Source: Hamadaea tsunoensis DSM 44101
GTDB taxonomy: Bacteria; Actinomycetota; Actinomycetes; Mycobacteriales; Micromonosporaceae
DNA length: 64,000 bases
Direction: 5' to 3'
Assembly (NCBI RefSeq): GCF_000428945.1
Contig: NZ_AUAX01000002.1
Span: forward strand, 372,001-436,000
The notes beneath the pieces are model-generated. The model saw only the letters and a program-made list of their open reading frames with translations, was not told the DNA's origin and searched no databases. A program made the translations under genes and the position numbers. Of this stretch, positions 5,867-24,842 are shown piece by piece (position 1 is the first letter of the stretch; every line of letters begins with the position of its first letter).

Positions 5867-5880
5867 GGGCCGAAAGTCCC
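5867..5880. promoter_or_regulatory. DevR/DosR-type box (cNMP operon and nitroreductase 1)
   Basis: GGGCCGAAAGTCCC resembles the DosR half-site palindrome GGGACT-NN-AGTCCC with two mismatches. It lies midway between divergent genes, 57 bp from the nitroreductase ATG and 58 bp from the cNMP gene ATG, the same spacing seen at two other island promoters. A weaker match (tGGACCCTGGcCC) lies at 5896-5909. Confidence 0.6.
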
Positions 5881-5937
5881 GCGTCCGGGCGCCGCTGGAC
5901 CCTGGCCCGGTGGCCGGGGCGGCGCGAATCTGGGGTC

Positions 5938-6915
5938 ATGACCACCACGACCGCCGGCGATCCGGCCACGATCAGCCCCGAGCTGCTGCCCTGCCTGACC
6001 GCGGCGATCGCCGCGCCCTCGATCCACAACACGCAGCCCTGGCGGTTCCGGGTCCGGCACAACGTGGTCGACGTGTTCGCCGATCGCGGGCGGCAGCTGG
6101 CCGTGCTCGACCCGGACGGCCGCGCGCTGGCGGTCTCCGTGGGCGCGGCGGTCTTCAACCTCCGCGCGGCGCTGCTGGCCCACGGCCACCTGCCGGTCCT
6201 GACGCTGCTGCCCGACCGGGGCGAGCCCGACCTGCTGGCCCGCGTCGTCGCCGGGGCCGCCGTCGCCCCGCCCTACGCGGCCCGGCGCCTCGCCGGCGCC
6301 ATCCCGCACCGGCATTCCAACCGGCGCCCGTTCGCGTCGTCCCGCGTGCCCGACTCCGTCGCCGACGACCTGCGCGCCGCCGCCGTCGCCGAGGGCACCC
6401 GCCTGCTGATCGCCGACGACCCGCTCGGCGAGGGCATCCTGAGCGTCGTACGCACGGCCGAGAACCGCCGCCGCGACGACCCGGACTACCTCGTCGAACT
6501 GGCCGCATGGACCGGCGCGGAGCGCGGCCGGCGCGACGGCGTACCGCCGGTGGCCTACGCTCCGCGCGATCCGGACGAGCGCCTGCCGCTGCGCGATTTC
6601 GGTCTGGCCCATCCGGTACGCCACGGCTGGCCGGCCGCCGGCATCGACCAGCCGACGGTCGCGGTGCTCTACACCGACGGCGACGACCTGCGGGCCTGGC
6701 TGCACGCCGGGCAGGCGCTGGAACGCGTACTGCTCACCGCGACGGCCGAGGGGCTTCAGTCGACGCTGATGACGCAGCCGCTGGAGTATCCGGAGCTGCG
6801 GGCGTTGTTCGAGGACAGCGCCACCAACCGCATCGCGCAGGCGATCATCCGCTTCGGGTACGGCCGGGAGGCGCCGGCATCGCCCCGCCGACCGCTCGCG
6901 GGCTTCCTCATCTGA
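5938..6915 (+). CDS. Acg-family nitroreductase-fold protein (copy 1)
   Basis: A 325-aa protein of the Acg/Rv3131-like nitroreductase family. The N-terminal signature APSIHNTQPWRF (about residues 25-36) matches the FMN-binding start of the family; two tandem half-domains follow, with PHRHSNRRPF and a late LRAWLHAGQALERVLLTATAEGL segment typical of the group. Members bind or sequester FMN and are induced during hypoxia and dormancy in mycobacteria; enzymatic nitroreduction is not certain. The ATG follows TGGGG. A second copy sits at 16124-17116. The upstream DevR box suggests hypoxic induction. Confidence 0.88.
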   Translation: MTTTTAGDPATISPELLPCLTAAIAAPSIHNTQPWRFRVRHNVVDVFADRGRQLAVLDPDGRALAVSVGAAVFNLRAALLAHGHLPVLTLLPDRGEPDLLARVVAGAAVAPPYAARRLAGAIPHRHSNRRPFASSRVPDSVADDLRAAAVAEGTRLLIADDPLGEGILSVVRTAENRRRDDPDYLVELAAWTGAERGRRDGVPPVAYAPRDPDERLPLRDFGLAHPVRHGWPAAGIDQPTVAVLYTDGDDLRAWLHAGQALERVLLTATAEGLQSTLMTQPLEYPELRALFEDSATNRIAQAIIRFGYGREAPASPRRPLAGFLI

Positions 6916-6943
6916 GGGGACCTCTTGACCGCCGCGGCACGGG

Positions 6944-7687
6944 TCAGTTGCTGAATCCGCCGTCGACGTTGACGGTCGCGCCCGTGATGTAGCGGGCGTC
7001 CGGGCTCGCGAGGAACGCGACCACCGCCGCGATGTCGTCCGGTTGCGCGTAGTGCCCCAGCGCGGTGAACCCGTTGACCGTCTCGGCGAAGGAACTGTCG
7101 GCGGGGTTCGTGTCCGTGTCGGTCGGGCCGGGGTTCACCAGGTTGACCGTGATCGACCGCGGCCCGAGTTCCCGGCCGAGCGCCTTCGTCAGGCCGGTCA
7201 GCGCCGTCTTGCTCATCGCGTACAGGGAGAATCCGGGGAAGACGGCGCGCTCGGCCACGTTGCTGCCGATGTTGATGATCCGCCCGCCGGCCCGCATGTG
7301 GCGGACGGCCGCCTGTGACGCGACGAAGGGCGCGCGGATGTTCACCGCGACGGTCTGCTCGAAGTCGTCCAGGGTGAACTGCTCGACCGGGCCGACGGCG
7401 AACGCCCCGGCGTTGTTGACCAGGATGTCCAGCCGCCCCCACCGGGCGACCACCTCGGCGACCGCGTCCTGCATGGCGATCGGGTCGGCGCTGTCGGCGC
7501 GTACGGCCTCGGCGCGGCGGCCTTTGCTACGGACCTGGTCGGCGACCTCCTCGGCGCGTTCCTTGCCGTCCCGGTAGGTGAGCGTCACGTCCGCGCCGAG
7601 GTCCGCCAGCCGCAGCGCGATCGCCGACCCGATTCCCCGGCTGCCGCCCGTCACGAGGGCGACCTTGCCGTCCAGTGTGTTGTTCAT
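6944..7687 (-). CDS. Short-chain dehydrogenase/reductase
   Basis: A 247-aa classical SDR: dinucleotide-binding TGGSRGIGSAIA near residues 14-25, NNAGA motif about residue 90, catalytic Ser in IINIGSN, YAMSK (Tyr/Lys pair) near 157-161, and the C-terminal VNVDGGF segment. It should reduce or oxidise a carbonyl or hydroxyl substrate using NADP(H), judged by the basic residue after the first strand; the substrate is unknown and resembles FabG/3-oxoacyl reductase-like members only in general form. No strong ribosome binding site precedes the ATG at 7687. It runs tail-to-tail with nitroreductase 1, separated by 28 bp. Confidence 0.9.
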   Translation of the reverse strand: MNNTLDGKVALVTGGSRGIGSAIALRLADLGADVTLTYRDGKERAEEVADQVRSKGRRAEAVRADSADPIAMQDAVAEVVARWGRLDILVNNAGAFAVGPVEQFTLDDFEQTVAVNIRAPFVASQAAVRHMRAGGRIINIGSNVAERAVFPGFSLYAMSKTALTGLTKALGRELGPRSITVNLVNPGPTDTDTNPADSSFAETVNGFTALGHYAQPDDIAAVVAFLASPDARYITGATVNVDGGFSN

Positions 7688-7761
7688 GCGTTCGAGCCTG
7701 CCGCGCGGCGAGGTCGTCGTCTGGCGAAGATCGGACGTCGCGGCGTACGCGAAACGGCGGG

Positions 7762-8238
7762 CTACGAAGCGGGCGCGACCTCGGCGGCCGCGCGGACGAG
7801 GTGCTCCAGATCGGCCTGGATGCCGTTCCTGATGCCCTTGCCGAGGATCAGGTTCCACACGCGGGCGAGCGGTCCGGCGAGCGTCACCGTGACGTCGATT
7901 CGCGTGTGCCCGCCGGAAACGGTGTCGACGAGGTGCCGGAAGGTCAGCCGGGCGCCGAACAGCAGCGAGACGTCGGTGAACTCCGAGGGGGTGAGCACGG
8001 CGACGACGAACTTCGTCTTCGGGCCGCCCTTGGGCTTGAGCTCGCCGGTCGCCCCGGCGGCGAACGGCCCGTCGAGGCGTACCCATGCGGTGTCGGTGTT
8101 CCACTGCGGCCAGGTCGCCATGTCGGCCCACCGGGCGAAGAACGCCGACGCCGGGAGGTCCGCCGTGACATGGGCGCGCGCGACCGTGATTCCCGGCGTA
8201 CGCGTGGTGCTGCTGTGACGTTCGGCAACCTGTGGCAT
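7762..8238 (-). CDS. SRPBCC (START/polyketide cyclase-like) family protein
   Basis: A 158-aa protein with the helix-grip fold signature: VTADLPASAFFARWADMATWPQW near residues 24-46 (the family PxxxVw.ll.d...wp.w motif), a central set of beta strands, and a long C-terminal helix from about residue 130. Members bind hydrophobic small molecules in a cavity; most are of unknown function. The ATG follows GGAAAGG. It lies 74 bp upstream of the SDR on the same strand and may be co-transcribed with it. Confidence 0.8.
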   Translation of the reverse strand: MPQVAERHSSTTRTPGITVARAHVTADLPASAFFARWADMATWPQWNTDTAWVRLDGPFAAGATGELKPKGGPKTKFVVAVLTPSEFTDVSLLFGARLTFRHLVDTVSGGHTRIDVTVTLAGPLARVWNLILGKGIRNGIQADLEHLVRAAAEVAPAS

Positions 8239-8364
8239 GGCTGGAGCCTTTCCGGCGACGGAACACGCGACGGGAGCGCGTGAGGACGAGCGACTGCTCC
8301 GAGTCTTGTCGGCGGTGCCGCCGCGGCCCAGTGGACAGATTCACGAGCGAACCGTGAAGATCTC

Positions 8365-9135
8365 ATGGGTCCGTACGGGGAGGGGGCGACCGCGGTGACG
8401 GCGAAACTCAGGCTGCGCGCGGAGGACCACCTCGCCGTGGGGGCGACGATGTGCTGGCTCCTGATCGGCATCCTCGGCCTCATCGGGCGCCACGCCGCCC
8501 ACCGGGGCTGGGGGATCACGATTCTCTGCCTGATCACGGCGCTGCAGATCTGGCACTGCCGGCGCAGCCACGACCGGCGGCGCATGCGGTTCTGGACGGT
8601 CACGGTGCTGCTGCAGGCGGGGCTGACCTACGCGCCGGTGTTCTTCCTCAGCGCGGATTCCGTGGGCGGCGCCGGGCTGCTGGCCGCCTCGCTGCTGCTG
8701 TTCCTCGCGCCGCCGTGGCGCTGGGCCGGCTGGGCAGCGGTGATCGCCAGCCCGCTGCTCATCGTCGCGATCGGCCGCGAACCGCTGTCGCTCGGCGTCT
8801 ACTTCCTGCTCGGTTCGGTGCTGTCCAGCCTCGGCATCTTCGGCCTGACCCGGCTGACCGACCTCGCCGGGCGGCTGCGGGCGGCGCGTACCGACCTGGT
8901 CGGGCTGGCGGTCGCCCGGGAGCGCGAACGCGTCACCGGCGACCTGCACCACCTGCTGGGTTACCGCCTGACGGCCATCGTGTCGCAGGGCGAACGCGCG
9001 CGGGTCGCGGCCGCGGGCGGCGACGCGCGACAGGTCCGCGCGGAACTGGCGCCCCTGCTGGTCTCCTCCCGTCAGGCCCTCGACGATGTACGCGCGACGG
9101 CCCAGCGCTACCGGGTCCGGCCCGGCCCGCGATGA
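8365..9135 (+). CDS. Truncated DesK-type sensor kinase (no ATPase domain)
   Basis: A 256-aa protein: four to five membrane segments (about residues 25-150), then a HisKA_3-like dimerisation helix pair containing LHHLLGYRL, then a stop. The HATPase_c domain is absent. The residue after the putative phospho-His is His, where active kinases (including its neighbour, LHDLLGYSL) have Asp. It is clearly a degenerate duplicate of the next gene: membrane regions align (WRWAGWAAV versus WRWVLWGAV). It probably cannot autophosphorylate and may instead heterodimerise with the full kinase. A GTG at 8395 with GGGGAGGG 10-11 bases upstream is a more likely start than the ATG at 8365. The stop overlaps the next start (ATGA). 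Confidence 0.8.
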   Translation: MGPYGEGATAVTAKLRLRAEDHLAVGATMCWLLIGILGLIGRHAAHRGWGITILCLITALQIWHCRRSHDRRRMRFWTVTVLLQAGLTYAPVFFLSADSVGGAGLLAASLLLFLAPPWRWAGWAAVIASPLLIVAIGREPLSLGVYFLLGSVLSSLGIFGLTRLTDLAGRLRAARTDLVGLAVARERERVTGDLHHLLGYRLTAIVSQGERARVAAAGGDARQVRAELAPLLVSSRQALDDVRATAQRYRVRPGPR

Positions 9136-10259
9136 CGGCCACCGAACCCGGTCCCGACGAGGCGGCGATCCCCGCGGCGCGTACGGCGATCGCCGTCACG
9201 GTCGCGATGATCCTCTGCTTCGTGGCCGTCACGTTCGGCTCGATCCTGTCCACTCAGTCCGAACACCTCGGCTGGTACGCGGCGACGCTGGCCGCGCTGG
9301 CGGTGATCCAGATCAGGCATCTGCGCGGCGGGCTCGGCGGCCGCCGGCCGCGGTACTGGATCGCCACGACGGTCCTGCAGGTGGTGCTCATCTATCCGCC
9401 CTTCCTGGCGGCGGGGATCTCCTGGGTGGCGACGCCGGCGTTCCTCGGCGCGACGCTGCTGCTGTTCCTGCGCTCCCGGTGGCGCTGGGTGCTCTGGGGC
9501 GCGGTCGTCGCCGGCGAGGCCGCAATCGTCCGGGCGCTGGACCCGGACCTCGTGGACTGCGCGTACTACACGGCCGGGCTGGTCTTCGCGAGCATCTGCA
9601 TCTACGGCCTGACCCGGCTGGCCGACCTGATCGTCGAGCTGCGCGCGGCCCGGGCCGAGCTCGTCCGGCTCGCGGCCGCCGGGGAACGCGACCGGGTGGG
9701 CCGCGACCTGCACGACCTGCTCGGCTACAGCCTCACCGCCGTCGTCCTCAAGGGCGAGCTGGCCGATCGGCTGGCCGGTGGCGACCTGCCGCGGGCGGCG
9801 GCGGAACTCGCCGGACTCGTGGACGTGGCCCGGCAGGCCCGTTCCGACGTACGCACGATCGCCACCACGCAGCGCCGCATGTCTCTCGACGACGAGCTGG
9901 CGGCGGCCCGGTCCGTTCTCGTCTCGGTCGGCGTCGCCACGGAGGTGTCCGGACCGGACGACGCGCTCGACGCCGGCACGCAGACCGTCCTGGCGACCGT
10001 TCTGCGGGAGGCGGTGGCCAACCTGCTGCGCCACAGCCAGGCCACCACGTGCACGATCCGGGTGCGGATCCGGCCGGACGGGGTCGCCCTGCGCGTACGC
10101 AACGACGGCGTCCCCGCGGTGCCGGCCGGCAGCCCCGGTACCGGTCTGGACAATCTCGCGCGGCGGCTCGGCGAGGCCGGCGGTCGCGTCGAGACGGACA
10201 CGGCGACGGCGGGCTGGTTCGAACTCATCGCACGGCTGCCCGCCTCAGAGCCAGCCTGA
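9132..10259 (+). CDS. DesK/NarL-type membrane sensor histidine kinase
   Basis: A 375-aa kinase: N-terminal membrane domain of about five helices (residues 15-150), HisKA_3 domain with the phosphoacceptor His in RDLHDLLGYSLTAV near residue 198, and a C-terminal HATPase_c domain with N box VLREAVANLLRHS, G1 VRNDGVP and G2 GTGLDNLARR. It has no extracytoplasmic sensory domain, so it likely senses membrane state or an interacting protein. It is translationally coupled to the truncated kinase upstream. Its likely partner regulator lies on the opposite strand, with the two 3' ends overlapping by 15 bp. Confidence 0.9.
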   Translation: MTATEPGPDEAAIPAARTAIAVTVAMILCFVAVTFGSILSTQSEHLGWYAATLAALAVIQIRHLRGGLGGRRPRYWIATTVLQVVLIYPPFLAAGISWVATPAFLGATLLLFLRSRWRWVLWGAVVAGEAAIVRALDPDLVDCAYYTAGLVFASICIYGLTRLADLIVELRAARAELVRLAAAGERDRVGRDLHDLLGYSLTAVVLKGELADRLAGGDLPRAAAELAGLVDVARQARSDVRTIATTQRRMSLDDELAAARSVLVSVGVATEVSGPDDALDAGTQTVLATVLREAVANLLRHSQATTCTIRVRIRPDGVALRVRNDGVPAVPAGSPGTGLDNLARRLGEAGGRVETDTATAGWFELIARLPASEPA

Positions 10260-10850
10260 CTCCTGCGCGATGCGGACCGCGTCGACCTTGCCGCGGGCGT
10301 TGAGCTTGGTGATGACCGCCGTCAGGTAGTTGCGGACGGTGCCCACCGACAGGAACAGCCGCCCGGCGATCTCGACCGGCGGAGCCCCGGCCGCCGTCAG
10401 CCGCAGGACCTCGGTCTCCCGCGGCGTCAGCGGACTGTGCTGGGCGTCCCACAGCGCGGCCGCCAGTTTCGCGTCGATCACTCGCTCGCCGGCCGCGACG
10501 GACCGGATGGCCGCCGCCAGCTGTTGCGGCGGGGCGTCCTTGAGCATGAACCCCTCGACACCGGCCTCCCGGGCGCGCAGCAGGTTCGCCGGGTGCCCGA
10601 AGCTGGTCAGGATCAGCACCCGGCAGTCCGCCAGCCGCTCCCGCAGCCGCCCGGCCGCCGTCAGCCCGTCCATGCCGGGCAGGTCGATGTCCAGCACCGC
10701 CACGTCCGGCCGGACGGCCAGGGCCGCCGGCACGACGGCGTCACCTGAGTCCACTTCGGACACGACCTCGATGTCGGGCTCGAAGCCGAGCAGCGCCACC
10801 AGCGCGCCGCGTACCAGGCGGTGGTCTTCCGCGAGCAGTACGCGAATCAT
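10245..10850 (-). CDS. NarL/LuxR-family response regulator
   Basis: A 201-aa regulator: receiver domain (residues 1-120) with acidic pocket AEDH, phosphoacceptor Asp54 (VAVLDIDLPG), Thr in ILTSFG and Lys in MLKD; then a LuxR helix-turn-helix (about 135-195: LTPRETEVLRLTAAG...VEIAGRLFLSVGTVRNYLTAVITKL). It is the probable partner of the kinase at 9132-10259 by family pairing. The gene is convergent with the kinase and overlaps its 3' end by 15 bp, so the two are not co-transcribed and full-length transcripts would be antisense to each other. Confidence 0.9.
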   Translation of the reverse strand: MIRVLLAEDHRLVRGALVALLGFEPDIEVVSEVDSGDAVVPAALAVRPDVAVLDIDLPGMDGLTAAGRLRERLADCRVLILTSFGHPANLLRAREAGVEGFMLKDAPPQQLAAAIRSVAAGERVIDAKLAAALWDAQHSPLTPRETEVLRLTAAGAPPVEIAGRLFLSVGTVRNYLTAVITKLNARGKVDAVRIAQESGWL

Positions 10851-11028
10851 CGCGACGTCCCTGGCCGGACGGGTGAGCGTTGCGGACGGCGTGCGGTCAT
10901 CAGACAACTGTAGGAGGTCGGCCGGTAGGCCGGATCCGGCGCTCCCGAGGCCGCTGATCTGCCAATAAGGTACCCACACTGCCGCTGCATCTTTCCTTCC
11001 CGTGCGCGGCGTGCATGTAATGGACGGC

Positions 11029-11781
11029 ATGGCCCTCGTCTTCACGGTGGAGCGTGATTGGCAGGACGGGATCTGGACCATCACGCTCGCCGGCGACTAT
11101 GCCCACGCCGACCACGTCGATCTGCGGCGGACGGTCGCGAGATGCCTGGCCGACCGGCCGGCGACCATCATCTTGAACCTGCAGGACGTCAGGTCCACCG
11201 ACCCGCTGCTGCCCCACGCGCTGGCCACCGAGGAGCGCCGGGCGCAGCGCGAGGAGGTGTCCCTGGTGTGCGCGCTGAACGACGAACTCGCGACGACGGT
11301 CCGGGCGGCGAGGATCGCGAACTTCCTCACCGTCTATCCGAGCGTCGCCGTCGCCCACACGCTCGTGGCCGGTGCGGCCACCCACCGCTGGCTGCACGTG
11401 CTGGTCGAGGACATCCCCAGCACCGTGAGCCACTGCCGCAACCGGGTCACCGCGGCCTGCCTCGCCTGGGGCGTCTGGCCCGTCCAGGACGCCGTCCGCA
11501 GCGTCACCACCGAACTGGTCGGCAACGCGCTGCGGTACGCCGGCGGCCGGGCCGAGGTCACCTTCACGCTGCGCCGCGGCCTGGTACGGATCGGCGTACA
11601 CGACTTCAACGCCACCTTGCCGGTCCTGCCGTCGCCGGTCGGCGTCCCCGCACTCGGCGCCGGCCGGATGCGGGGCCTCGACCGGGTCGCCGCGACCGCG
11701 ACGACCTGGGGCGCGCGCAAGACGCCCCGCGGCAAGGTGGTCTGGGCGGCCATCCGCGTCGGCCCCTCGTCGAGCGCCTGA
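11029..11781 (+). CDS. STAS plus HATPase fusion (anti-sigma/antagonist type)
   Basis: A protein of about 250 aa. The first half has the STAS fold pattern (GIWTITLAGDYAHADHVDLRR..., ATIILNLQDVRSTDP), as in SpoIIAA-type anti-sigma antagonists. The second half is an RsbW-like HATPase with N box SVTTELVGNALRYAGG and a degenerate G1/G2 region. Such fusions belong to partner-switching systems that control sigma factors or other outputs under stress. Starts at 11002 (GTG), 11020 (ATG) and 11029 (ATG) share the frame; none has a good ribosome binding site, so the start is uncertain. It is convergent with the P-type ATPase gene, with a 4-bp gap. Confidence 0.75.
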   Translation: MALVFTVERDWQDGIWTITLAGDYAHADHVDLRRTVARCLADRPATIILNLQDVRSTDPLLPHALATEERRAQREEVSLVCALNDELATTVRAARIANFLTVYPSVAVAHTLVAGAATHRWLHVLVEDIPSTVSHCRNRVTAACLAWGVWPVQDAVRSVTTELVGNALRYAGGRAEVTFTLRRGLVRIGVHDFNATLPVLPSPVGVPALGAGRMRGLDRVAATATTWGARKTPRGKVVWAAIRVGPSSSA

Positions 11782-11785
11782 TCCG

Positions 11786-14311
11786 TCAGCCGGTCTCCGC
11801 GGTCCGCTCCGCCGGCCGCTCCGGCCGCAGGCGGACGATCCCGAGGACCAGTCCGGGGATCACCGCGGCCGCCACGCAGATCCCCCACTCCGTGAGCGTC
11901 AGCGACTCCGTCCGCAACAGCAGCCGCAACGGTTCCAGTACCACCGCCGCCACCTGGGCCACCGCCGAGGACGCGATCGCCAGCAGCAGGCCGGGATTCG
12001 CCCAGCCCTGCCCGTGCGGGCGGCGTGCGCGTACCGCCAGGGCGACGCCCAGCTGGGCGAGGCCGAGGACCACGAACACCATCGTCTGCCAGGGCCGGCC
12101 GGCCGCCGACGCGTACACGCCGACGGCGAGGGTCACCGCCGCGACGAGGCTGCCGAGGGCCAGCACCGTCCACCCCAGACCGCCGCCGAGCACCTGCTCC
12201 TGCGGCGGCCTCGGCGGGCGTCGCAGCAGGCCGGGTTCGGCCGGCTCGGCGCCGAGGGCCACCCCCGGCAGGCCGTGCGTGAGCAGGTTGATCCACAGGA
12301 TCTGGCCGGGCAGCACCGGCACCGGCAGCCCCAGGAACGGGCCGGCCAGCATGACGACGATCTCGGCGAACCCGCCGGCCAGGGCGTACCGCAGGAAGCG
12401 GCGGATGTTGTCGTAGACCCGGCGGCCCTCGGCGATCGCCACGGTCACCGTCGCCAGCTCGTCGTCGACCAGGATCAGGTCCGCGGCCTGCCGCGCCACC
12501 TCCGTGCCGCCGCCCATCGCCACCCCGATGTCCGCGCGGCGCAGCGCCGGCGCGTCGTTCACCCCGTCCCCGGTCATCGCCACGACCTGCCCGCCGTCCT
12601 GCAGCGCCGCGACGATGTCCAGCTTCTGCTCCGGACGCGTACGCGCGAACACGCCGGCCGATCCCGCCGCCTGCGGTGCCCCGCCGTGGCCGATCTCGTC
12701 GCCGGGCGCCCAGATGCCCAGCTGCCGCCCGATCGCCGCCGCCGTCTGCGGATGGTCCCCGGTGATCAGCATCAGCCGTACGCCGGCCGCCCGGATCCGC
12801 TCGGCGGTGTCGGCCGCGCCCGGCCGGAGCGGATCGCCGATCCCGACCACGCCGAGCACCTCCAGCCCGGCCGGCGTACGCGGATCGCCCGGCTCCCCCC
12901 TGCGCGCGGCGACGGCGAGCACCCGCAGCCCCTGTGCCGCGAGCTCCTCGGCGGCCGTCAGGGCCTGCGCGACGGCCGGATCCGCGGGGTCGGTGATCGG
13001 CGCGGCGAGCACGGTCTCCGGCGCCCCCTTGCAGACCGTCAGGTACGCGTCGCCGTCCTTGTGCACCGTCGTCATCCGCCTGGCCTCCTGGTCGAACGGC
13101 TGCTCGTCGACGCGCGGGGCGGCTGAGCGTACCCGCGCGGGGTCCAGACCGCAGCGGGCGGCGAACGTGACCAGCGCGCCTTCGACGGGGTCGCCCACCG
13201 CGTACCAGTGGGGGTGCTCGCCGTCCGGAGCGAGGACCGCGGCGTCGGAGCAGAGCACGGCGGCCCGGGCGAGGTCGAGCAGCGGCGCGCCCGGCGGCGG
13301 CTCGACCTGGCCGGCCGGATCGTAGCCGGTGCCGTGTGCACTGTGGACGATCCCGGCGGTGTACGCGCGCCGGACCGCCATCTTGCCCTCGGTGAGGGTG
13401 CCGGTCTTGTCGGAGGCGAGGACGGTGACCGAGCCGAGCGCCTCGACGGCGTGCAGGTTGCGCGGGATGGCGCGGTGGCGGGCCATCCGGCGGGCACCGA
13501 GGGCGAGCGCGAGGGTGACCACGGCGGGCAGCGACTCGGGCACGGCGGCGACCACGAGGCTGACGCCGACGAGGGCCATGGTCAGCAGGCTGCGGCCCTG
13601 CAGGAGGCCGATCGCGGCGACCAGGGCACTCAGCAGGACGATGAACACCCCGAGCGTACGCCCGAACGCGGCGAGCCGGCGTTGCAGCGGCGTCGCGGTC
13701 GGCGCCCCCGTACGCGTGAGCGCGGCGATCTGCCCCAGCGCGCTGCGCGGCCCGGTACGCGCGACCGTGCCCGTCGCCCGCCCGGTGACGACCACCGTCC
13801 CGGCGAGGAGTTCCTGCTCGGCCGCCCGGGCGACGGGCACGGACTCGCCGGTGAGGGCGGCCTCGTCGACCTGGCACCGGTACGCCTCGGCGATCACGAT
13901 GTCGGCCGGCACGACGTCGCCGGCCTCGACCCGGACAAGGTCGCCGCGCACGAGCCCGGCCGCCGGGATCTGCCGGTCGGCACCGTCCCGCACGACCCTC
14001 GCGACCGGCGCCGCGAGCGCGTCGAGGGCCGCGATCGCACGGTCGGCCCGGACCTCCTGGGTGACGCCGATGGCGGTGTTCAGCGCGACGACCAGCACGA
14101 TGATCGCGGTGTCCGGCCAGTCGCCGAGCAGCGCCGTGACGACCGCGGCACCCAGCAGGATCGCGACGAGCGGCTCGGCGAGCTGGGCCCCGACCCGGCG
14201 CGGCAGGCCGCGCGGCCGCGGCTTGGGCACCTCGTTCGGCCCGTCCGCGGCCAGGACCGCCGCCGCCTCGGCCTCGCTCAGCCCGCCCGGCAGACCGGTG
14301 GCGATCGTCAT
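11786..14311 (-). CDS. P-type cation-transporting ATPase (CtpF-like, P2 type)
   Basis: An 841-aa pump with a cation ATPase N-terminal domain, actuator loop with TGES, phosphorylation motif DKTGTLT (Asp301), nucleotide-binding KGAPE, hinge [11 protein letters not shown], and about ten membrane helices. The M4 ion-binding motif reads PESLP rather than the PEGLP of calcium pumps, and M6 carries NLLTHGLPG, so calcium is plausible but not proven. The Mycobacterium tuberculosis relative CtpF belongs to the DosR regulon. I choose the ATG at 14311 because a DevR-type box lies 58 bp upstream; a GTG at 14356 would sit almost against that box. Confidence 0.9.
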
Positions 14312-14369: not shown

Positions 14370-14383
14370 AGGACTTTCGTCCC
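14370..14383. promoter_or_regulatory. DevR/DosR-type box (P-type ATPase)
   Basis: AGGACTTTCGTCCC matches the mycobacterial core GGGACTTTAGTCCC at 12 of 14 positions. It sits 58 bp before the ATG of the ATPase on the minus strand, matching the spacing at two other promoters in the island. Confidence 0.65.
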
Positions 14384-14463: not shown

Positions 14464-14988
14464 ATGCCGGTCACCCGGGTCGCCACGCTCGACGACGCCC
14501 CCGCCGTCACCGAACTTCTGCGTACGCACCGGGACGCCCTCGCGCCCTGGGAGCCGCTGCGCGAGGACGCCTGGTTCACGCTCGACAGCCAGCGCGCGAT
14601 CCTCGAAACGTCACTCCAGGCGTACGCGCAGGGCACCCTGGTCCCGCTGGTCATCGTCGACGGCGATCTCGACGGCGGCGAGGTCATAGGTCGACTGAAC
14701 CTCAACGGTGTCACCCGGGGCGCACTGCAGTCCGCGGCCCTGGGCTACTGGGTCAGCCCGACGCACCACGGCCGGGGATTCGCCACCCGCGCGGTCGCCG
14801 ACGCCGTCGCCCTGGCCTTCGGCGAACTCGGCCTGCACCGGCTGCAGGCCGAGACGCTGCTGCACAACACGGCATCGCAGCAGGTGCTGCTGCGCAACGG
14901 ATTCCGGCCGTACGGGGTGGCGCCGTCCTACCTCAACATCGCCGGCCGCTGGCAGGACCACGTCCTCTTCCACCTCCTCAACGAGTGA
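14464..14988 (+). CDS. GNAT N-acetyltransferase (RimJ/RimL type)
   Basis: A 174-aa acetyltransferase: N-terminal VTRVATLDDAPAVTELL, acceptor-side WEPLR, and motif A around LGYWVSPTHHGRGFATRAVADAV (residues about 93-115) with the acetyl-CoA loop HHGRGFA, then the late HRLQAETLLHNTASQQVLLRNGFRPYG motif shared by RimJ/RimL and related N-terminal amine acetyltransferases. The substrate cannot be told. The ATG at 14464 follows TGGGAG with normal spacing; an in-frame ATG at 14392 is less likely and would overlap promoter elements of the divergent ATPase gene. Confidence 0.88.
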   Translation: MPVTRVATLDDAPAVTELLRTHRDALAPWEPLREDAWFTLDSQRAILETSLQAYAQGTLVPLVIVDGDLDGGEVIGRLNLNGVTRGALQSAALGYWVSPTHHGRGFATRAVADAVALAFGELGLHRLQAETLLHNTASQQVLLRNGFRPYGVAPSYLNIAGRWQDHVLFHLLNE

Positions 14989-15190: not shown

Positions 15191-16096
15191 TTAGATTTGG
15201 TGGTCTGCGTGGATGACGGCGATCGGATGCACCGCGTGGTGGACGAGCGCCTGGCTGACCGAGCCGAGGAGCAGCCCCTTGAAGCCACCCCTCCCCCGGC
15301 TGCCGACGACGATCAGGCCGGCGGTCCGGGCCGCGTCGATCATCGCCTGCTGGATGTTGTGCGCGGCGAGCGTACGGGTCTGGATGCGGACGCCCGGCTC
15401 GTGCGCCCAGGGTGCGACCGCGTCGGCCAGGACCAGCCGCGCGCCGGCCTCGGCGCGGGCGACCTCGTCGCGGGTCTGTGTCGCGGTGATCGGGAAGACG
15501 TGCAGGGCGATGAGGTCGACGTCGCGACGGCGGGCCTGATCGACGGCGAACCGCAGGGCGGTCTGGCCGGCCGGTGAACCGTCGACGCCGACCAGGATCG
15601 GGCCGTCGGGGGCGGGTGGCGCGGGCGGCTGCTCGGGGCCGGGCGGCACCTCGGCGGCGGGCGGCCGCAGCACGATCACAGGGCTCTCCGCATGCGCGAT
15701 CAGCTGCGACGACACCGAACCGAGCAGCAGTTCGGTGAAGCCGCCGATGCCCCGGCACCCGACGACGGTGAGCTGCGCCCGGCGGGACTCGTCGATCAGG
15801 ATCCCGGCCGCGCCGCCGACCACCTGCCGGCCGGAGATCTCACGCACAGCCGGGTACTCCTCGCGCAGCTGCTTGCCCAGAGCGGCCAGCTGCTCGTCGA
15901 TCTCCGGCCGGTCGTCGGGCAGGTAACCCATGCCGGTCGGGAAGTAGCCGTACATCGGAATCTCGTACGCGGCCAGCAGCACCAGCGGTGCGCCCCGCAA
16001 CTCGGCCTCGTGGGCGGCGTACCGGGCGGCGGCGAGACCGCCCGCGGACCCGTCCACCCCGGCGACGACCGGCTTGATCGGGATGTCGGTGGGCAT
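15191..16096 (-). CDS. Tandem universal stress protein (two UspA domains)
   Basis: A 301-aa protein with two Usp domains (about 6-145 and 160-298). Each starts with a V.GVDGS strand and ends with an ATP-binding loop: VVGCRGIGGFTELLLGSVSSQL and VVGSRGRGGFKGLLLGSVSQAL, matching G-x2-G-x9-G-(S/T). It should bind ATP. Tandem Usp proteins of this kind are DosR regulon members in mycobacteria and promote persistence under hypoxia. The ATG follows CAGGAGGAG. It is 27 bp behind nitroreductase 2 on the same strand, so the pair is an operon driven from the DevR-box promoter upstream of 17116. Confidence 0.93.
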   Translation of the reverse strand: MPTDIPIKPVVAGVDGSAGGLAAARYAAHEAELRGAPLVLLAAYEIPMYGYFPTGMGYLPDDRPEIDEQLAALGKQLREEYPAVREISGRQVVGGAAGILIDESRRAQLTVVGCRGIGGFTELLLGSVSSQLIAHAESPVIVLRPPAAEVPPGPEQPPAPPAPDGPILVGVDGSPAGQTALRFAVDQARRRDVDLIALHVFPITATQTRDEVARAEAGARLVLADAVAPWAHEPGVRIQTRTLAAHNIQQAMIDAARTAGLIVVGSRGRGGFKGLLLGSVSQALVHHAVHPIAVIHADHQI

Positions 16097-16123: not shown

Positions 16124-17116
16124 TCAGTTCTCGGAAACGGTCACGATGTCGCCGAGGCTGCGGCGGGGACTGGCCGGCGGCGTGCCCTGCGGCGGGTGGC
16201 CGACCCGCAGGGCGAGCTGCGGCAGACCCACCCCGGCCAGCAGCCCCCGCAACCGCTCCCGCGTCAGCGCGGTCTCGGTGACGTCGCTGATCGGCGCGCC
16301 GGCCAGACCGTCCACCGTCGCGGTCAGCAGCATCGACGAGAGCGCCTGCCCCGTACGCAGCCAGGCCTCCGGCGTGTCCTCGTCGGTGAACAGGATCGCG
16401 TACAGGGCACCGGCGTCGGTGTGCTCGCCGGCGTCCAGGCCGGCCGCGCCGGGGACGGCGAAGTCGCGTACCGGGACCCGGCGGGCACCCGGGGCCACCG
16501 CCGTCGCCGCCGGTACGCCCTCCCCGTTGGCCGGACCGGGCACCGAGCCGACGGTCCACCGGGCCAGTTCCCGCCGGTACGCGGGATCGGCCAGTTCCAG
16601 CTCCCCGGCCTGGGCGGCGACCGCGGCGAGGGCGCCGACCTGGTGCTCGCGCAGGACCGCGAGGTGCGCGCCTTCGGCCTCGGCGGCGGCCGCCAACCGC
16701 TGGACGGCCGCGTCGGCGACCGGTTCGGCCGTGAACGCCCGCCGGTCCGTACGCCGCTGCGAGATCGCGTGGTACATCACGTACTCGTGGACGTCGGCGG
16801 TCCGGGCCTCGCCGGGTTCGATGACGGCCAGCAGATCCGGGTCGGCCGGGTCGGGCAGTACGCGTACCGTGCTCGACCGGCCGCCCGCCGTCACGGCAAG
16901 CCGCGCGTGGTGCAGCGCCGCCCCGCAGCTCACCGTCAGCAGCCGCCCTTCCGGGTCGGCGACGAGCAACTGGCGCGCGCGGTCGGCGTACAGGCTCAAG
17001 GTTCGTCCGGCAACGACCCACCGCCACGGCTGGGTGTTGAAGATGGAGGGCGCGTGCAGTGCGGCCTGCGCCGCGGCGCGCAGCTGCCGTTCCGTCACCG
17101 GTGTCGTCTCGGTCAT
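16124..17116 (-). CDS. Acg-family nitroreductase-fold protein (copy 2)
   Basis: A 330-aa paralogue of the protein at 5938-6915, with the same APSIFNTQPWRW N-terminal signature, SQRRTDRRAF middle motif, and AWLRTGQALSSMLLTATVDGL late motif. It probably binds FMN; in mycobacteria these proteins are among the strongest hypoxia-induced products. The ATG at 17116 follows a G-rich GGGTGGGGG stretch. It is the first gene of an operon with the universal stress protein and is divergent from devR, with paired DevR-type boxes in the shared region. Confidence 0.88.
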   Translation of the reverse strand: MTETTPVTERQLRAAAQAALHAPSIFNTQPWRWVVAGRTLSLYADRARQLLVADPEGRLLTVSCGAALHHARLAVTAGGRSSTVRVLPDPADPDLLAVIEPGEARTADVHEYVMYHAISQRRTDRRAFTAEPVADAAVQRLAAAAEAEGAHLAVLREHQVGALAAVAAQAGELELADPAYRRELARWTVGSVPGPANGEGVPAATAVAPGARRVPVRDFAVPGAAGLDAGEHTDAGALYAILFTDEDTPEAWLRTGQALSSMLLTATVDGLAGAPISDVTETALTRERLRGLLAGVGLPQLALRVGHPPQGTPPASPRRSLGDIVTVSEN

Positions 17117-17173: not shown

Positions 17174-17187
17174 GGGCCACAGGTCCC
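17174..17187. promoter_or_regulatory. DevR/DosR-type box, nitroreductase-proximal
   Basis: GGGCCACAGGTCCC, an imperfect version of the stronger box 24 bp to the right (centre to centre). It is 57 bp from the nitroreductase 2 start and 60 bp from the devR start. Paired boxes about two helical turns apart are common at strong DosR promoters. Confidence 0.55.
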
Positions 17188-17197
17188 GGCGCGACGC

Positions 17198-17211
17198 GGG
17201 ACCAAGGTCCC
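17198..17211. promoter_or_regulatory. DevR/DosR-type box, devR-proximal
   Basis: GGGACC-AA-GGTCCC, a perfect palindrome in its 6-bp arms and the best DevR-like site in the window. It lies 36 bp before the devR ATG, so it could give autoregulation, while with the neighbouring box it serves the divergent nitroreductase/Usp operon. Confidence 0.7.
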
Positions 17212-17247
17212 TATGCGCGCGGTTGCGGCTGCTGCGACACTGACGGG

Positions 17248-17883
17248 ATGATCCGGGTGTTTCTCCTCGACGACCACGAGGTCGTCCGCCGTGGCCTGCG
17301 CGAGCTGCTGGAGGCTCAGGGCGACATCGAGGTCGTCGGCGAGTCCGGCCTGGCGGTCGAGGCCGCCCACCGCGCCCCGGCGCTGCGCCCGGACGTCGCG
17401 ATCCTCGACGCCCGGCTGCCCGACGGCAGCGGCATCGACGCCGCCCGCGACATCCGCTCGGTCGACCCCTCGATCAAGGTCCTCATCCTCACGTCCTATG
17501 AGGACGACGAGGCGCTGTTCGCCGCCATCATGGCCGGCGCCGCCGGCTACCTGCTCAAGCAGATCAAGGGCACCGATCTCGTGGACGCCGTCCGCCGGGT
17601 CGCCGCCGGGCAGTCGCTGCTCGACCCCGCCGTGACGCTACGCGTGCTCGAACGCATCCGGCATCCGCAGCAGGAGCCGGCGCAGCTGCGCTCGCTCAGC
17701 GAGCAGGAACGCAAGATCCTGAACTACATCGCGGACGGGCTGACCAACCGCCAGATCGCCGAGAACATGTTCCTCGCCGAGAAGACGGTGAAGAACTACG
17801 TCTCCAGCCTGCTGGCGAAGCTCGGCCTGGAGCGGCGTACGCAGGCGGCCGTTCTCGCGACGCGGCTGCGCGACGGCCGCTGA
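17248..17883 (+). CDS. devR: DevR/DosR-like response regulator
   Basis: A 211-aa NarL-family regulator. Receiver domain residues 1-120: LLDDHEVVRRGL, phosphoacceptor Asp54 in AILDARLPDG, LILTSYEDDEA, and KQIKG. C-terminal LuxR HTH about 145-205: LSEQERKILNYIADGLTNRQIAENMFLAEKTVKNYVSSLLAKLGLERRTQAAV. The HTH and the VDDHEVVRRGL/LPDG.GI segments closely follow mycobacterial DosR, including the helix-9 recognition segment AEKTVKNYVS. It likely activates the island through the GGGAC-N-GTCCC boxes listed here. The GAF kinase at 19961-21625 is its natural partner, although they are not adjacent. Confidence 0.9.
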   Translation: MIRVFLLDDHEVVRRGLRELLEAQGDIEVVGESGLAVEAAHRAPALRPDVAILDARLPDGSGIDAARDIRSVDPSIKVLILTSYEDDEALFAAIMAGAAGYLLKQIKGTDLVDAVRRVAAGQSLLDPAVTLRVLERIRHPQQEPAQLRSLSEQERKILNYIADGLTNRQIAENMFLAEKTVKNYVSSLLAKLGLERRTQAAVLATRLRDGR

Positions 17884-17918: not shown

Positions 17919-17968
17919 AGATGTCAAAGACTCCCTTGACATCTCGCAATGCCAAAGTACTCTTTGGC
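17919..17968 (+). promoter_or_regulatory. ArsR-type operator/promoter, leaderless
   Basis: Two perfect inverted repeats: AGATGTCAA/TTGACATCT with an 8-bp spacer (17919-17944) and GCCAAAG/CTTTGGC with a 4-bp spacer (17951-17968). A -35 TTGACA (17936-17941) lies in the first and a -10 TACTCT (17958-17963) in the second, 16 bp apart. Transcription would start at about 17970, next to the ATG at 17971, giving a leaderless mRNA. Both repeats cover the promoter core, as expected for autorepression by the ArsR-type regulator that follows. Confidence 0.75.
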
Positions 17969-17970
17969 TT

Positions 17971-19397: not shown

Positions 19398-19428
19398 CCC
19401 CTGGCTCTCGTCGCCACCCCGTTCTCGA

Positions 19429-19496
19429 CGATCTTGCGCGAGTGTCTCGAATTTCGCGGCGAACGCCCGAAAGGCCCGGACATTCGCGCAAGATCG
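19429..19496. terminator. Hairpin terminator or repeat with 18-bp arms
   Basis: CGATCTTGCGCGAGTGTC (19429-19446) pairs with 19479-19496 with a single mismatch, around a 32-bp loop. It lies 30 bp after the MBL gene stop. The arm length is unusual for a simple terminator. Confidence 0.6.
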
Positions 19497-19581
19497 CGGG
19501 AAGCGGGAGTGGCCGCGGGTGTATCCAGGCGACCGGGTGGGGCCCCTCATCTGCGTACGCACTCACGATGAGGAGAGTCCG

Positions 19582-19914
19582 ATGGACGAGTCGAAGCCCA
19601 CCCGCCACGAACTGAGCGGTGACGACCAAGCCCGCATGCTCCGGTTGACCGAGGAGATCCAGGGACGGCTGCAGGAGATCAGCCTCATCGCCGGGCGGGT
19701 GCTCGGCGTCAGCTATCCCCCGGACGTTGTCCGGCAGTTCAAGCCCGTCCCGGTACGCCGGGAGTCCGACGGTGTCCAGACCGGCATCTACATCGAGATC
19801 GTGGCCGGCGGCCCGGGTGTCTGGTACGACGACGTGTGCTTCGTCTACTGCGCGGGCGAAGGTACGCCGGTCACCTGGATCGAGTCGCCGTGCGGCGGCA
19901 GCATGTCCTGCTGA
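19582..19914 (+). CDS. Small hypothetical protein with Cys-rich C terminus
   Basis: A 110-aa protein, no recognised family. Residues 1-60 are charged and helical (LTEEIQGRLQEISLIAGRVLG); 61-110 look like beta strands (VQTGIYIEIVAG..VWYDDVCFVYC) and end PCGGSMSC, with four Cys in the last 30 residues. The ATG follows GATGAGGAGAG, a good ribosome binding site, and codon use is normal, so I believe the gene is real. It lies tail-to-tail with the DevS-like kinase. The leader-plus-Cys/Ser core shape is reminiscent of some RiPP precursors, but no modification enzyme is nearby. Confidence 0.65.
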   Translation: MDESKPTRHELSGDDQARMLRLTEEIQGRLQEISLIAGRVLGVSYPPDVVRQFKPVPVRRESDGVQTGIYIEIVAGGPGVWYDDVCFVYCAGEGTPVTWIESPCGGSMSC

Positions 19915-19957
19915 TCCACGGTCTGCCGATTCACGGTCTGCTGATTGGTGGTCTGGT
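19913..19957. repeat. Three 15-bp tandem repeats
   Basis: Units GATCCACGGTCTGCC, GATTCACGGTCTGCT and GATTGGTGGTCTGGT lie head to tail between the 110-aa gene and the convergent kinase gene. They are progressively diverged copies. Confidence 0.6.
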
Positions 19958-19960
19958 GAG

Positions 19961-23137
<3,177 letters not shown>

Positions 23138-23163
23138 ACCGTCCCCGGCCGGTGACGCCGCAC

Positions 23164-23232
23164 GCAACGCAGGCAAGTCAGGCCCCGCAACGCAGGCAAG
23201 TCAGGCCCCGCAACGCAGGCACGTCAGGCTTC
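23164..23232. repeat. Three 23-bp tandem repeats
   Basis: Units starting GCAACGCAGGCAAGTCAGG at 23164 and 23187 are identical; the third at 23210 is nearly so, then diverges. It is followed by looser repeats of a CTTCGCTC..TGACGGGC-like word to about 23290. Lies between convergent MFS and hydrolase genes. Confidence 0.75.
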
Positions 23233-23286
23233 GCTCAGTGGACGGGCGGCAGGACTTCGCTCGATGACGGGCGAGCCGGACGTCGC

Positions 23287-24048
23287 TCAGTGGTCGGTGA
23301 GCCAGGCGACGACCGTGGACACCAGCCAAGCGCGCTGGGACAGGTGGACGTCGTGGCCGGCCCCCAGCGCCTCCCGGAACTTCCCGCGGGGGATCGCCGC
23401 GGCGAATTCGCGGACGAGGTCCGGCGGGCAGAACGGATCGTCGGTACCGGTGATCAGCAGGGCCGGGCAGCGGATGGCGGCTGCCTGCGACCGGCTGATG
23501 TCGCCGCCCGCGTCGATGATCGCACCCATCGCCTCAGCCCAGCTGCGGGCCATGATCCGGGCTTCCGCCACGCCGTACTTCTCGGCCAGGTAGGCCGCCA
23601 GGGTCTTGAGCTCGTCGATGGGGTCGTCCGGCAGCCGGGCCAGCCCTTGCAACAACCGGGGCGCCGCCACGACCTGGCCGGCCGCTCCCCAGGCGGCGAC
23701 GGACAACGCCCCGGCCGGCCGCAGCGCCGCCATGAGAAGTGCCAGCTCGCCGCCGTCGCTGAAGCCGACGAGATGGGCCACGCCGAGTCCGAGTTCGTCG
23801 AGCAGACCGAGCAGGACGAGGGCGTCGTCGCGGTAGTAGGTCGAGGTGTACCGCCTCGGCTGAGGCTGCGACCGGCCCGACCCCGGTATGTCGACGGCGA
23901 TGACGCGGAACCCGGACACGAGTTCGAGTCGCAGCCGATCGAGGTCGATGATGCTGCCACCCCAACCCGGCATGAGCACCACGGCGTCACCCCGGCCGTG
24001 GTCCTCGTAGTAGACCCGGTTTCCGTCCGATGGCTCGTACCAGGCCAT
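23287..24048 (-). CDS. Alpha/beta hydrolase
   Basis: A 253-aa alpha/beta hydrolase: oxyanion-hole region VVLMPGWGGS (about residues 24-33), nucleophile elbow GFSDGG (Ser near 96), acid Asp in ITGTDDPFCPP (near 200) and catalytic His in GAGHDVHLS (near 229). Asp directly follows the Ser of the elbow. It resembles small esterase or haloperoxidase-type members and has no signal peptide; the substrate is unknown. The ATG at 24048 follows GAGAGGG. Confidence 0.9.
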   Translation of the reverse strand: MAWYEPSDGNRVYYEDHGRGDAVVLMPGWGGSIIDLDRLRLELVSGFRVIAVDIPGSGRSQPQPRRYTSTYYRDDALVLLGLLDELGLGVAHLVGFSDGGELALLMAALRPAGALSVAAWGAAGQVVAAPRLLQGLARLPDDPIDELKTLAAYLAEKYGVAEARIMARSWAEAMGAIIDAGGDISRSQAAAIRCPALLITGTDDPFCPPDLVREFAAAIPRGKFREALGAGHDVHLSQRAWLVSTVVAWLTDH

Positions 24049-24179
24049 GGAGCCCTCTCAGCGCCGGCGATGGGAGCGCCGACCGGCGGGCCGGGCCTCC
24101 GCCCCGTGAAGGTAGCAGGACCGCTCCGCACCGGCGATACGACCTCAGGCGGTACGAATTCCGATAATACGCCTCATAG

Positions 24180-24241
24180 CGGTACAGATCCGGGCGGTAC
24201 AGATCCGGGGCGGTACAGATTCAGGGCGGGACGGACTCAGG
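24180..24241. repeat. Four 15-16-bp tandem repeats
   Basis: CGGTACAGATCCGGG-type units at 24180, 24195, 24211 and 24227, the last more diverged; the array begins less clearly at about 24149. It runs into the 3' end of the small gene on the minus strand. Confidence 0.7.
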
Positions 24242-24497
24242 CGAGGTCGGCCGGGCGACCGGAGCCGCCGGTGGTCCCGCCCCGCACAGCCTCGCGGATC
24301 CACCGCATGCGGGCGGCGGCGGTCTCCGGGTGGTCGCCGTACTCCTCGGCGACCCGCTCGGCGCAGTACTGCGGGCCGAACTGCCGGAGCACGGTCGCGA
24401 TCACCGTGGAGATCTGCCGGGAGTCGGGCTGATCGGACGCCTGGACGTGGGACGCGAAGAGCGCCTCGCGCATCGTGTCGATGTTCGGCTGGAACAT
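24237..24497 (-). CDS. Small hypothetical protein (86 aa)
   Basis: An 86-aa, mostly helical, cytoplasmic protein (MFQPNIDTMREALFASHV..., STVIATVLRQFGPQYCAERVAEEYGDHPETAAARMRWIREAV). One Cys, no motif that I recognise. The ATG at 24497 follows TTGGAGGA with good spacing, and the gene has normal codon use until its Gly-rich end, which lies in a tandem-repeat array. A possible function is not visible. Confidence 0.7.
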   Translation of the reverse strand: MFQPNIDTMREALFASHVQASDQPDSRQISTVIATVLRQFGPQYCAERVAEEYGDHPETAAARMRWIREAVRGGTTGGSGRPADLA

Positions 24498-24842
24498 TGC
24501 ATCCTCCAATGCACTTCGCTTGGATCCATCGTCGCGTCCGGTCACAGCCGCGAAACATCGTCTTTACGGCCTATTACACAAAAGGTATTTCGCGGAGGAA
24601 CGGTGCTAAACAGGACCGCACCTCGCAGGTCTCCCTACGCTCGGTAATCAGGCATACACCGGCGAGTCACCTACCACGACCGGTTCACCGGATCGTCCGG
24701 ACAGGACCAAGGGCCCGTACGCGAGGGTGCTGCGACTCTGCCGGCGAACCCGACACGGCGCGCATCGTGAACACGGAAGACAGGAAGGAAAAGGCAGGAC
24801 CACCGAACGCAGACGCGGTCGATGACGGCGAAGGAGACAGCC
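24498..24842. other. Intergenic region before the DoxX gene
   Basis: About 345 bp with lower GC content between divergent genes. It holds a DevR-type box at 24703-24716 and, just before the DoxX gene, GAAGGAGAC. I see no conserved coding frame. An AT-rich patch around 24565-24600 may carry the promoter of the leftward small gene or of an unidentified leader. Confidence 0.5.
24703..24716. promoter_or_regulatory. DevR/DosR-type box (DoxX gene)
   Basis: AGGACCAAGGGCCC matches the devR box GGGACCAAGGTCCC at 12 of 14 positions. It is 126 bp from the DoxX ATG, farther than the 57-58 bp seen elsewhere, so the link is weaker unless the leader is long. Confidence 0.5.

Follow-up and report, generated by a model that had tools for sequence, protein, structure and literature searches.

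A 19-kb island in the genome of Hamadaea tsunoensis DSM 44101 most probably (we put it at about 0.9) forms the core of a DevR/DosR (OsdR)-type two-component regulon in this species of the Micromonosporaceae. The island lies in a stretch of 64,000 nucleotides, hereafter the window (C2:372001-436000; the genome amounts to 9.48 Mb in 68 contigs), and holds genes for a DevR response regulator and a DevS sensor kinase, together with five 14-nt palindromes, or boxes, resembling GGGAC-N4-GTCCC. This reading is supported by the orthology of DevR and DevS, an independently trained matrix, the clustering of the boxes, the conservation of tandem boxes in congeners, the gene families that recur around devR, and the binding data in the main text on Streptomyces coelicolor OsdR (PMC5069765). 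The system is a known one and the island a new example of it; the new points are minor, namely, two near-identical devS genes, a second boxed island with fermentation genes, the prediction of a leaderless devR mRNA, and the recurrence of DoxX. The features of the island are given below, and all distances are from the inner edge of a box to the start codon.

4820..5326, minus strand: flavodoxin-domain protein (Pfam Flavodoxin_5, E 2.9e-13), ATG start, open translation; second gene of the predicted cyclic nucleotide-binding (cNMP) operon, with a 4-nt overlap
5323..5808, minus strand: cNMP-binding-domain protein, 161 amino acids (aa) (Pfam cNMP_binding, E 1.7e-11); 61-64% orthologue in the devR island of two congeners
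5867..5880: predicted DevR box, matrix score 12.9, one of the eight strict sites of the genome; common to the divergent cNMP operon and nitroreductase 1
5938..6915, plus strand: nitroreductase 1, Acg/Rv3131 family flavin mononucleotide (FMN) oxidoreductase (NCBIfam NF047509, 292 bits, cut-off 199)
11786..14311, minus strand: P-type (Ca-type, CtpF-like) cation ATPase, 841 aa (Pfam E1-E2_ATPase, E 1.1e-49)
14370..14383: predicted DevR box, matrix score 17.1, 58 nt before the ATPase ATG at 14311 (minus strand)
15191..16096, minus strand: universal stress protein (Usp) with two Usp stretches (Pfam Usp, E 1.6e-49), behind nitroreductase 2 on the same strand
16124..17116, minus strand: nitroreductase 2, Acg/Rv3131 family FMN oxidoreductase (NCBIfam NF047509, 300 bits, cut-off 199)
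17174..17187: predicted DevR box, matrix score 12.6; nitroreductase 2-proximal, devR-distal
17198..17211: predicted DevR box, perfect consensus, matrix score 17.6; devR-proximal, nitroreductase 2-distal
17248..17883, plus strand: devR, NarL-type response regulator, 211 aa (full-length match to Mycobacterium tuberculosis DevR, 3c3w)
19961..21625, minus strand: devS, GAF-GAF-HisKA_3-HATPase sensor kinase, 554 aa, GTG start (Pfam)
24703..24716: predicted DevR box, matrix score 15.1; DoxX ATGs at 105 and 126 nt
24822..25391, plus strand: DoxX-family membrane protein (Pfam DoxX, E 3.7e-5, just above the cut-off)

The regulator and its sensor

By sequence, DevR is a full-length orthologue of the M. 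tuberculosis protein: residues 1-210 of its 211 match 3c3w_A with an E value of 1.8e-70, the next match being VraR at 7.8e-47. The phospho-acceptor D54 is present, and the recognition-helix segment EKTVKNY, at position 178, is found in both proteins; K179, K182, and N183 of DevR are the residues that we take to contact DNA. The next DevR paralogue in the genome is only 46% identical to it; among named organisms, the closest DevR proteins are those of Catellatospora, Dactylosporangium, Couchioplanes, and Micromonospora (the best five share 81-83% protein identity).

A protein search of the genome found one devS inside the window and a second copy on another contig, C14. The Pfam matches of DevS are GAF_2 (two stretches), HisKA_3, and HATPase_c, and its first GAF domain (GAF-A) matches DosT/DevS structures with a best E value of 1.4e-52. 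The proximal histidine and distal tyrosine of the heme pocket, presumably H149 and Y171 in M. tuberculosis numbering, are aligned in GAF-A and stand 22 residues apart as in DevS in the four structure alignments inspected (2vzw, 2y8h, 4ynr, 2y79). GAF-A thus appears to be of the heme type, and heme binding is predicted.

In the mechanism that we propose, DevS would bind heme in GAF-A and sense low oxygen (or NO/CO), the loss of O2 would activate the kinase, and DevS would phosphorylate DevR at D54. Phosphorylated DevR would bind the 14-nt palindromes and activate promoters in which the box lies at or just upstream of the -35 region. Box 5867 would turn on both divergent units, the cNMP-flavodoxin pair and nitroreductase 1, and box 14370 would turn on the ATPase gene. 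The 17174/17198 pair would serve the divergent devR and the presumed nitroreductase 2-Usp operon, so that devR would be autoregulated, and box 24703 would serve DoxX.

Two other kinase genes of the window, at 8365-10259, were considered as devS and rejected, as their best PDB match is DesK and no GAF domain is found at E<=0.001. They are tandem DesK-like genes facing a DesR-like regulator gene, and the first (8365-9135) stops after HisKA_3 and has no match to an ATPase domain. The closest PDB matches of all the kinase and regulator genes at 8365-11084 are DesK and DesR, not DevS and DevR.

The boxes against their background

A sequence-only reading of the window had proposed the palindromes at 5867, 14370, 17174, 17198, and 24703, and all five are present, with 1, 1, 1, 0, and 2 mismatches, respectively. 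With up to one mismatch, the consensus occurs eight times in the window, including 42948, 44330, and 55252, outside the claimed region, and 14632, inside a gene. Counting the plain consensus was rejected as a discriminator because it does not separate the boxes from the background, and a weight matrix of 20 nt was therefore built. It was trained on 27 boxes in the devR promoters of relatives in the Micromonosporaceae, none of them from the H. tsunoensis genome.

At a score of at least 10, this matrix finds precisely the five boxes and 55252 in the 64-kb window; at 8 or more, it additionally finds 4728 and 18440. Twenty stretches of the same genome (400 kb) gave five matches at 10 or above and two at 12 or above. 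Between 5800 and 24800, five matches reach 12.5, compared with a mean of 0.18 and a maximum of two in 300 first-order Markov simulations. Taking the 400-kb rate as background, five or more matches would have a Poisson probability of ~6e-8, a value that is not free of selection since the region was chosen for its boxes. Less dependent on that choice is the scan of the whole genome for the strict pattern GGGMCNWWNGKCCC, which occurs at eight sites in 9.48 Mb: two in the window island, four within 10 kb on C14, one on C18, and one on C48. The sequence-only reading had made the reality of the boxes depend on their frequency upstream of genes relative to shuffled sequence; in the window, the bare consensus is not enriched over shuffles, and it is the matrix trained on relatives that sets the boxes apart.

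The constant spacing between boxes and start codons had been advanced as the strongest argument. Recomputation gave 57 nt from box 5867 to nitroreductase 1 (ATG 5938) and 58 nt to the cNMP gene (ATG 5808, minus strand), 58 nt for the ATPase, and 57 nt from box 17174 to nitroreductase 2 (ATG 17116, minus strand), as proposed. Box 17174 does lie 60 nt before the devR ATG at 17248, but the devR-proximal box is 17198, which is 36 nt from devR, 81 nt from nitroreductase 2, and 24 bp from its neighbor; 17174 is the box distal to devR. Box 24703, by contrast, departs from this spacing: no start codon is found at 57-58 nt, and the DoxX ATGs lie at the two longer distances listed above. Box 14370 also stands 80 nt ahead of the ATG of a GNAT gene at 14464.

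In the H. tsunoensis genome, the 57-59 nt spacing occurs at six starts, the four in the window and those of a nitroreductase (59 nt) and a CBS-domain protein (57 nt) on C14, and 58 nt is also the distance to nitroreductase 2 in two congeners. Other boxes on C14 lie at 35 (Usp), 64, 76, and 79 nt, and most phosphoketolase genes of relatives have theirs at ~70-100 nt. The spacing therefore recurs and is the commonest in the genome, yet it is no rule of the regulon, and the independent matrix, the clustering, and the conservation are better arguments. When the promoters with boxes at 57-58 nt were inspected by eye for a common -10 geometry, no convincing shared hexamer was seen.

Conservation in the genus and the family

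We compared the island with three congeners (G001, G002, and G003), in which devR is 91-92% identical. Between the nitroreductase 2 and devR genes, a box lies 36-37 nt from devR in all four genomes of the genus, and a second one 24 bp away in three of the four. The distances are as follows.

H. tsunoensis: devR 36/60 nt; nitroreductase 2 57/81 nt
G001: devR 37/61 nt; nitroreductase 2 58/82 nt
G002: devR 36/60 nt; nitroreductase 2 58/82 nt
G003: devR 36 nt only; nitroreductase 2 82 nt only

The counterpart of box 17174 is weak in two of the three congeners (9.4-9.9), and none scores 7.5 or more in the third. The islands of G001 and G003 contain a nitroreductase, devS, the ATPase, cNMP, Usp, nitroreductase 2, and devR, and in G003 DoxX stands beside devS. 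A DoxX box in a congener is found at 68 nt with a low score (9.3). The devS boxes at projected starts lie at 96 and 279 nt in G001, and G003 has none. In G001, the cNMP gene may be served by the nitroreductase 2/Usp box, because it follows these two genes directly on the same strand; in G003, ~2.6 kb separate Usp from cNMP, and this interval contains a box with a score of 19.8.

Gene membership was counted in 80 fetched devR loci with tblastn (E<=1e-15, 40% coverage). Some gene lists come from a third-position-GC caller that may miss genes, and that picked an opposite-strand open reading frame (ORF) in place of devS; the homologue and box counts in devR loci rest on tblastn instead. Homologues of devS were found in 62 loci, of the nitroreductases in 32, of Usp in 23, of DoxX in 15, and of the ATPase in 9. 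A start was taken as a boxed anchor when a box scoring 12 or more lay in the interval from -60 to 250 nt relative to the projected start. By this measure, boxes accompany 27/50 nitroreductase, 14/54 Usp, 7/14 DoxX, 3/9 ATPase, and 8/60 devS anchors, where some nitroreductase and devS anchors count devR-side boxes that were used in training the matrix. Of 164 boxes in the devR loci, 68 fall at such anchors.

The regulon proposed from the sequence is thus supported: DevR, DevS, two Acg-type nitroreductases, Usp, and a Ca-type P-type ATPase were all identified by the tools, a matrix trained elsewhere scores the boxes well, and the same gene families cluster around devR in other genomes. For the ATPase, to which we presume the name CtpF to apply, TIGR01522/01116 gave ~497 bits, under the equivalog cut-off, and 67-69% orthologues are present in the islands of two congeners. 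DoxX had been named as a less expected member; its presence in 15 of the 80 loci, boxed in half of the 14 anchors, makes it a recurrent neighbor of devR and a recurrent member. The same had been said of the cNMP/flavodoxin pair; the cNMP gene is kept in the islands of two congeners and is probably a regulon member in this genus.

The DesK/DesR-like, SDR, STAS, ArsR, MBL, and ABH genes of the island look like passengers. Among the 80 loci, the SDR gene has homologues in two, the DesK-like kinases in none and one, and the STAS, ArsR, MBL, and ABH genes in none. The GNAT gene beside box 14370, which may be either a member or a passenger, has none. Eight further genes of the window have homologues in 0-4 of the 80 loci.

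Weighing the regulon

Several results count against the regulon as we read it. The bare consensus with up to two mismatches is under-represented, with 51 occurrences in the window compared with 97.9 +/- 9.5 in shuffles. Genome-wide, the eight sites of GGGMCNWWNGKCCC are fewer than the 13 of a reversed-pattern control; with R and Y at the ends, the strict pattern has 26 sites (4 in the window island, 5 on C14) and its control 68. The devS genes of the window and of C14 have no box scoring 7.5 or more within 330 nt upstream, and the perfect box at 55252 has no start at a plausible distance on either strand. In the congeners, the ATPase boxes lie 277 and 210 nt from the projected starts, and the orthologues of cNMP and nitroreductase 1 have no box above 8.0 within 330 nt of theirs. 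Finally, cNMP and flavodoxin homologues occur in only two and one of the 80 devR loci, and neither of the two cNMP anchors is boxed. As the total of GGGMCNWWNGKCCC is below its control, yet six of the eight sites fall in two islands, the signal is in the clustering and not in the total number.

It is conceivable, though we consider it unlikely, that only the devR/nitroreductase 2 boxes and perhaps that of the ATPase work, and that boxes 5867 and 24703, or the assignments of cNMP, GNAT, and DoxX, are due to chance. Of the five boxes, 5867 and 17174 score lowest (12.9 and 12.6), box 24703 is 105-126 nt from a start, and the perfect box at 55252, which serves no gene, indicates that chance matches of such quality can occur. 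However, with two matches per 400 kb at this threshold, several by chance in 19 kb would be improbable; box 5867 is symmetric to two starts, at 57 and 58 nt; and DoxX is boxed in 7 of the 14 devR-linked copies that could be assessed.

Very improbable, in our view, is that the boxes are real NarL-family sites read by another regulator, such as the DesR-like protein (10245-10850) or a NarL-type paralogue, with DevR as one user among several: response regulators resembling DevR are indeed numerous in the genome (95 matches at E<=1e-3), a DesK/DesR-like system sits within the island, and contig C1 carries a GAF-kinase/response-regulator pair, 45% like DevR, with its own GGGACCTTGGTCCT palindrome upstream, but the box keeps its place before devR in 21/27 loci of the family and 4/4 genomes of the genus, homologues of the window's two DesK-like kinases turn up in none and in one of the 80 devR loci (the DesR-like regulator was left uncounted, as any response regulator would match), and DevR has the same DNA-contact segment as its M. 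tuberculosis counterpart.

A second boxed island and a second devS

The reading of the island as a DevR regulon would extend to C14, a contig separate from C2, where a second boxed island spans ~170-188 kb and holds a devS. Its boxed genes are listed below; the distances are readings, as several genes have other in-frame starts nearer or further.

Usp: box at 35 nt, score 12.9
Gene weakly like F420H2-quinone reductase (under its Pfam cut-off): box at 64 nt, score 9.7
Pyruvate formate-lyase with activase: box at 69 nt from the ATG, score 12.5
Phosphoketolase: box at 79 nt from the GTG, score 20.9
Nitroreductase: box at 59 nt, score 16.1
CBS-domain protein, then P-type ATPase: box at 57 nt, score 10.5
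Zinc alcohol dehydrogenase: box at 76 nt, score 16.7
ORF without Pfam match: two boxes, scores 16.7 and 8.7, no clear start

A strong match at L028 17369 falls within the ATPase gene of this island. Directly upstream of the C14 devS, a 101-aa ORF matches the C-terminal part of the Hsp20 profile (59-101 of 102; E 4.8e-6), and no Hsp20 was seen in the annotated part of the window.

The devS of the window (19963-21634) and that of C14 (L028 18288-19959) are 96.65% identical over 1672 bases without a gap, and the similarity runs from 9 bases ahead of the GTG start to the first base of the stop codon. Of their 56 differences, 41 are in third codon positions and five change an amino acid. G001 and G003 have one devS each (E<=1e-75), 8 and 10 kb from devR and ~70-72% identical to the pair, and none was found at this threshold in G002, an assembly that is 87% complete. 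In the family, devR is present in 78 of 101 genomes (E<=1e-75) and devS (E<=1e-90) in at least 80, with two or more copies in at least 9; the devS counts are lower bounds, as 13 candidates were scored per genome. A recent duplication, perhaps one precise to the ORF, or gene conversion confined to the coding sequence would account for the pair. That a single genome has two such similar sensor genes bears on both gene conversion and sensor dosage.

The devR promoter

Of the 80 fetched devR loci, 31 were examined for their promoters, and four (L063, L064, L106, and L109) were dropped as lying outside the family and having no start codon at the start of the match, which left 27. A box with up to two mismatches lies 35-36 nt from devR in 21 of these. 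The element TA[GC]NA occurs at -12 in 24 of the 27 promoters and at -13 in one more; it was found in 1/27 in each of two control intervals. The corresponding element in H. tsunoensis is the following.

17236..17241, plus strand: putative -10 hexamer GACACT, at -12..-7 from the devR ATG, aligned in four genomes

Within the genus, the aligned hexamer reads GACACT, CAGACT, or CACACT at -12; in G001 it is at -13, and the box there has moved by that one base as well. The box, 23-24 nt, the -10-like element, 6 nt, and the ATG look like a locked unit, and on account of this register devR may be leaderless throughout the family, with transcription from the A of its ATG. If so, the box would be at about -50 to -37, which would fit an activator at -35. 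Shine-Dalgarno-like words are present in the last 16 nt before devR in 11/27 promoters, which weakens the leaderless reading, and a ribosome-binding site could account for some of the conserved sequence. A sharp prediction, that of a leaderless mRNA, follows from the constant positions of the box, the -10-like element, and the ATG relative to one another.

Taking these observations together, we tentatively propose, at somewhat under even odds for the combination, a Dos response divided between two boxed islands, with a single devR and a pair of devS genes that gene conversion, confined to the coding sequence, keeps near-identical. C14 would add a fermentative module (pyruvate formate-lyase with activase, phosphoketolase, and alcohol dehydrogenase) and the window island would add DoxX and the cNMP-binding/flavodoxin pair, while the devR mRNA would be leaderless, with box, -10 element, and start codon locked across the family.

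Relation to known systems

The island resembles the M. tuberculosis DosR regulon in its DevR and DevS/DosT orthologues, Acg/Rv3131 nitroreductases, Usp, and Ca-type P-type ATPase. It differs in its accompanying genes, which are the cNMP-flavodoxin pair and DoxX, and in having two near-identical devS genes where M. tuberculosis has the DevS/DosT pair, whose members have diverged. H. tsunoensis devR has its own promoter and may be leaderless, whereas in M. tuberculosis the gene is described as part of an Rv3134c-devR-devS operon. The close packing of boxes is common to both, and M. tuberculosis has two sites in the tgs1-Rv3131 intergenic region; in the account given for that species, the -35 element is overlapped by the proximal box, and tight packing accompanies cooperative binding (PMC3029386).

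The island is also similar to the OsdR/OsdK regulon of S. coelicolor (SCO0167-SCO0219), which, as presented in the main text of Urem et al. 2016 (PMC5069765), has a DevR-orthologous regulator, a DevS/DosT-related kinase, and palindromic boxes before Usp, nitroreductase, and regulator genes, clustered around the regulator gene. According to that text, OsdR binds M. tuberculosis DevR targets as well as its own predicted sites, and the promoter activity of three targets is low or lost in an osdR mutant (PMC5069765). The published OsdR consensus is AGGGCCGATCGGCCCT, whereas that of H. tsunoensis is GGGACCAAGGTCCC-like (PMC5069765). In S. coelicolor, osdR and osdK form an operon, whereas devS of H. 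tsunoensis stands apart from devR, on the other strand, and has two copies; the Nar2 nitrate reductase belongs to the OsdR cluster, and none is among the annotated H. tsunoensis genes (PMC5069765). A word search of the main text gave no DoxX, phosphoketolase, formate lyase, flavodoxin, or cyclic nucleotide, and Table 1 has two Crp-like genes (PMC5069765). Among the matches listed in literature searches, no title dealt with DosR/DevR in the Micromonosporaceae or with DoxX and DosR, which is no claim of absence from print.

From a biological perspective, the DevR system is best known in connection with tubercle-bacillus dormancy. Its occurrence in a soil actinobacterium, where the regulator, boxes, and core targets are the same and are joined by fermentation genes and DoxX, provides a further setting in which to study its mechanism and ancestral targets.

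Further observations

Box 55252-55265 is a perfect GGGAC-N4-GTCCC with a score of 16.5, just beyond the stop codon of a minus-strand ORF (55271-55999); it is likely a chance match, the alternative being a small transcript that went unrecognised. Nearby, a 0.2-kb stretch (54912-55122) in an 800-bp gap without clear genes recurs at 85% identity at L119 4428-4637. Also in the window, the ORF at 25812-27518 matches TIR_2 (two stretches) and CarboxypepD_reg and possibly encodes a defense or signaling protein.

The palindrome on C1 (L032 8119-8132; C1:262118) is a near-perfect GGGACCTTGGTCCT. It lies 50 nt ahead of a single-GAF histidine kinase gene, measured to the longest ORF, and the gene of a NarL-type regulator comes next; cross-talk with DevR is possible, as is autoregulation via a similar site. 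On C18, three tandem boxes at exact 22-bp steps (L030 8388-8445; C18:168387 onward) stand ahead of an FG-GAP-repeat ORF of 1115 aa, and the first of them resembles what we take to be the mycobacterial consensus.

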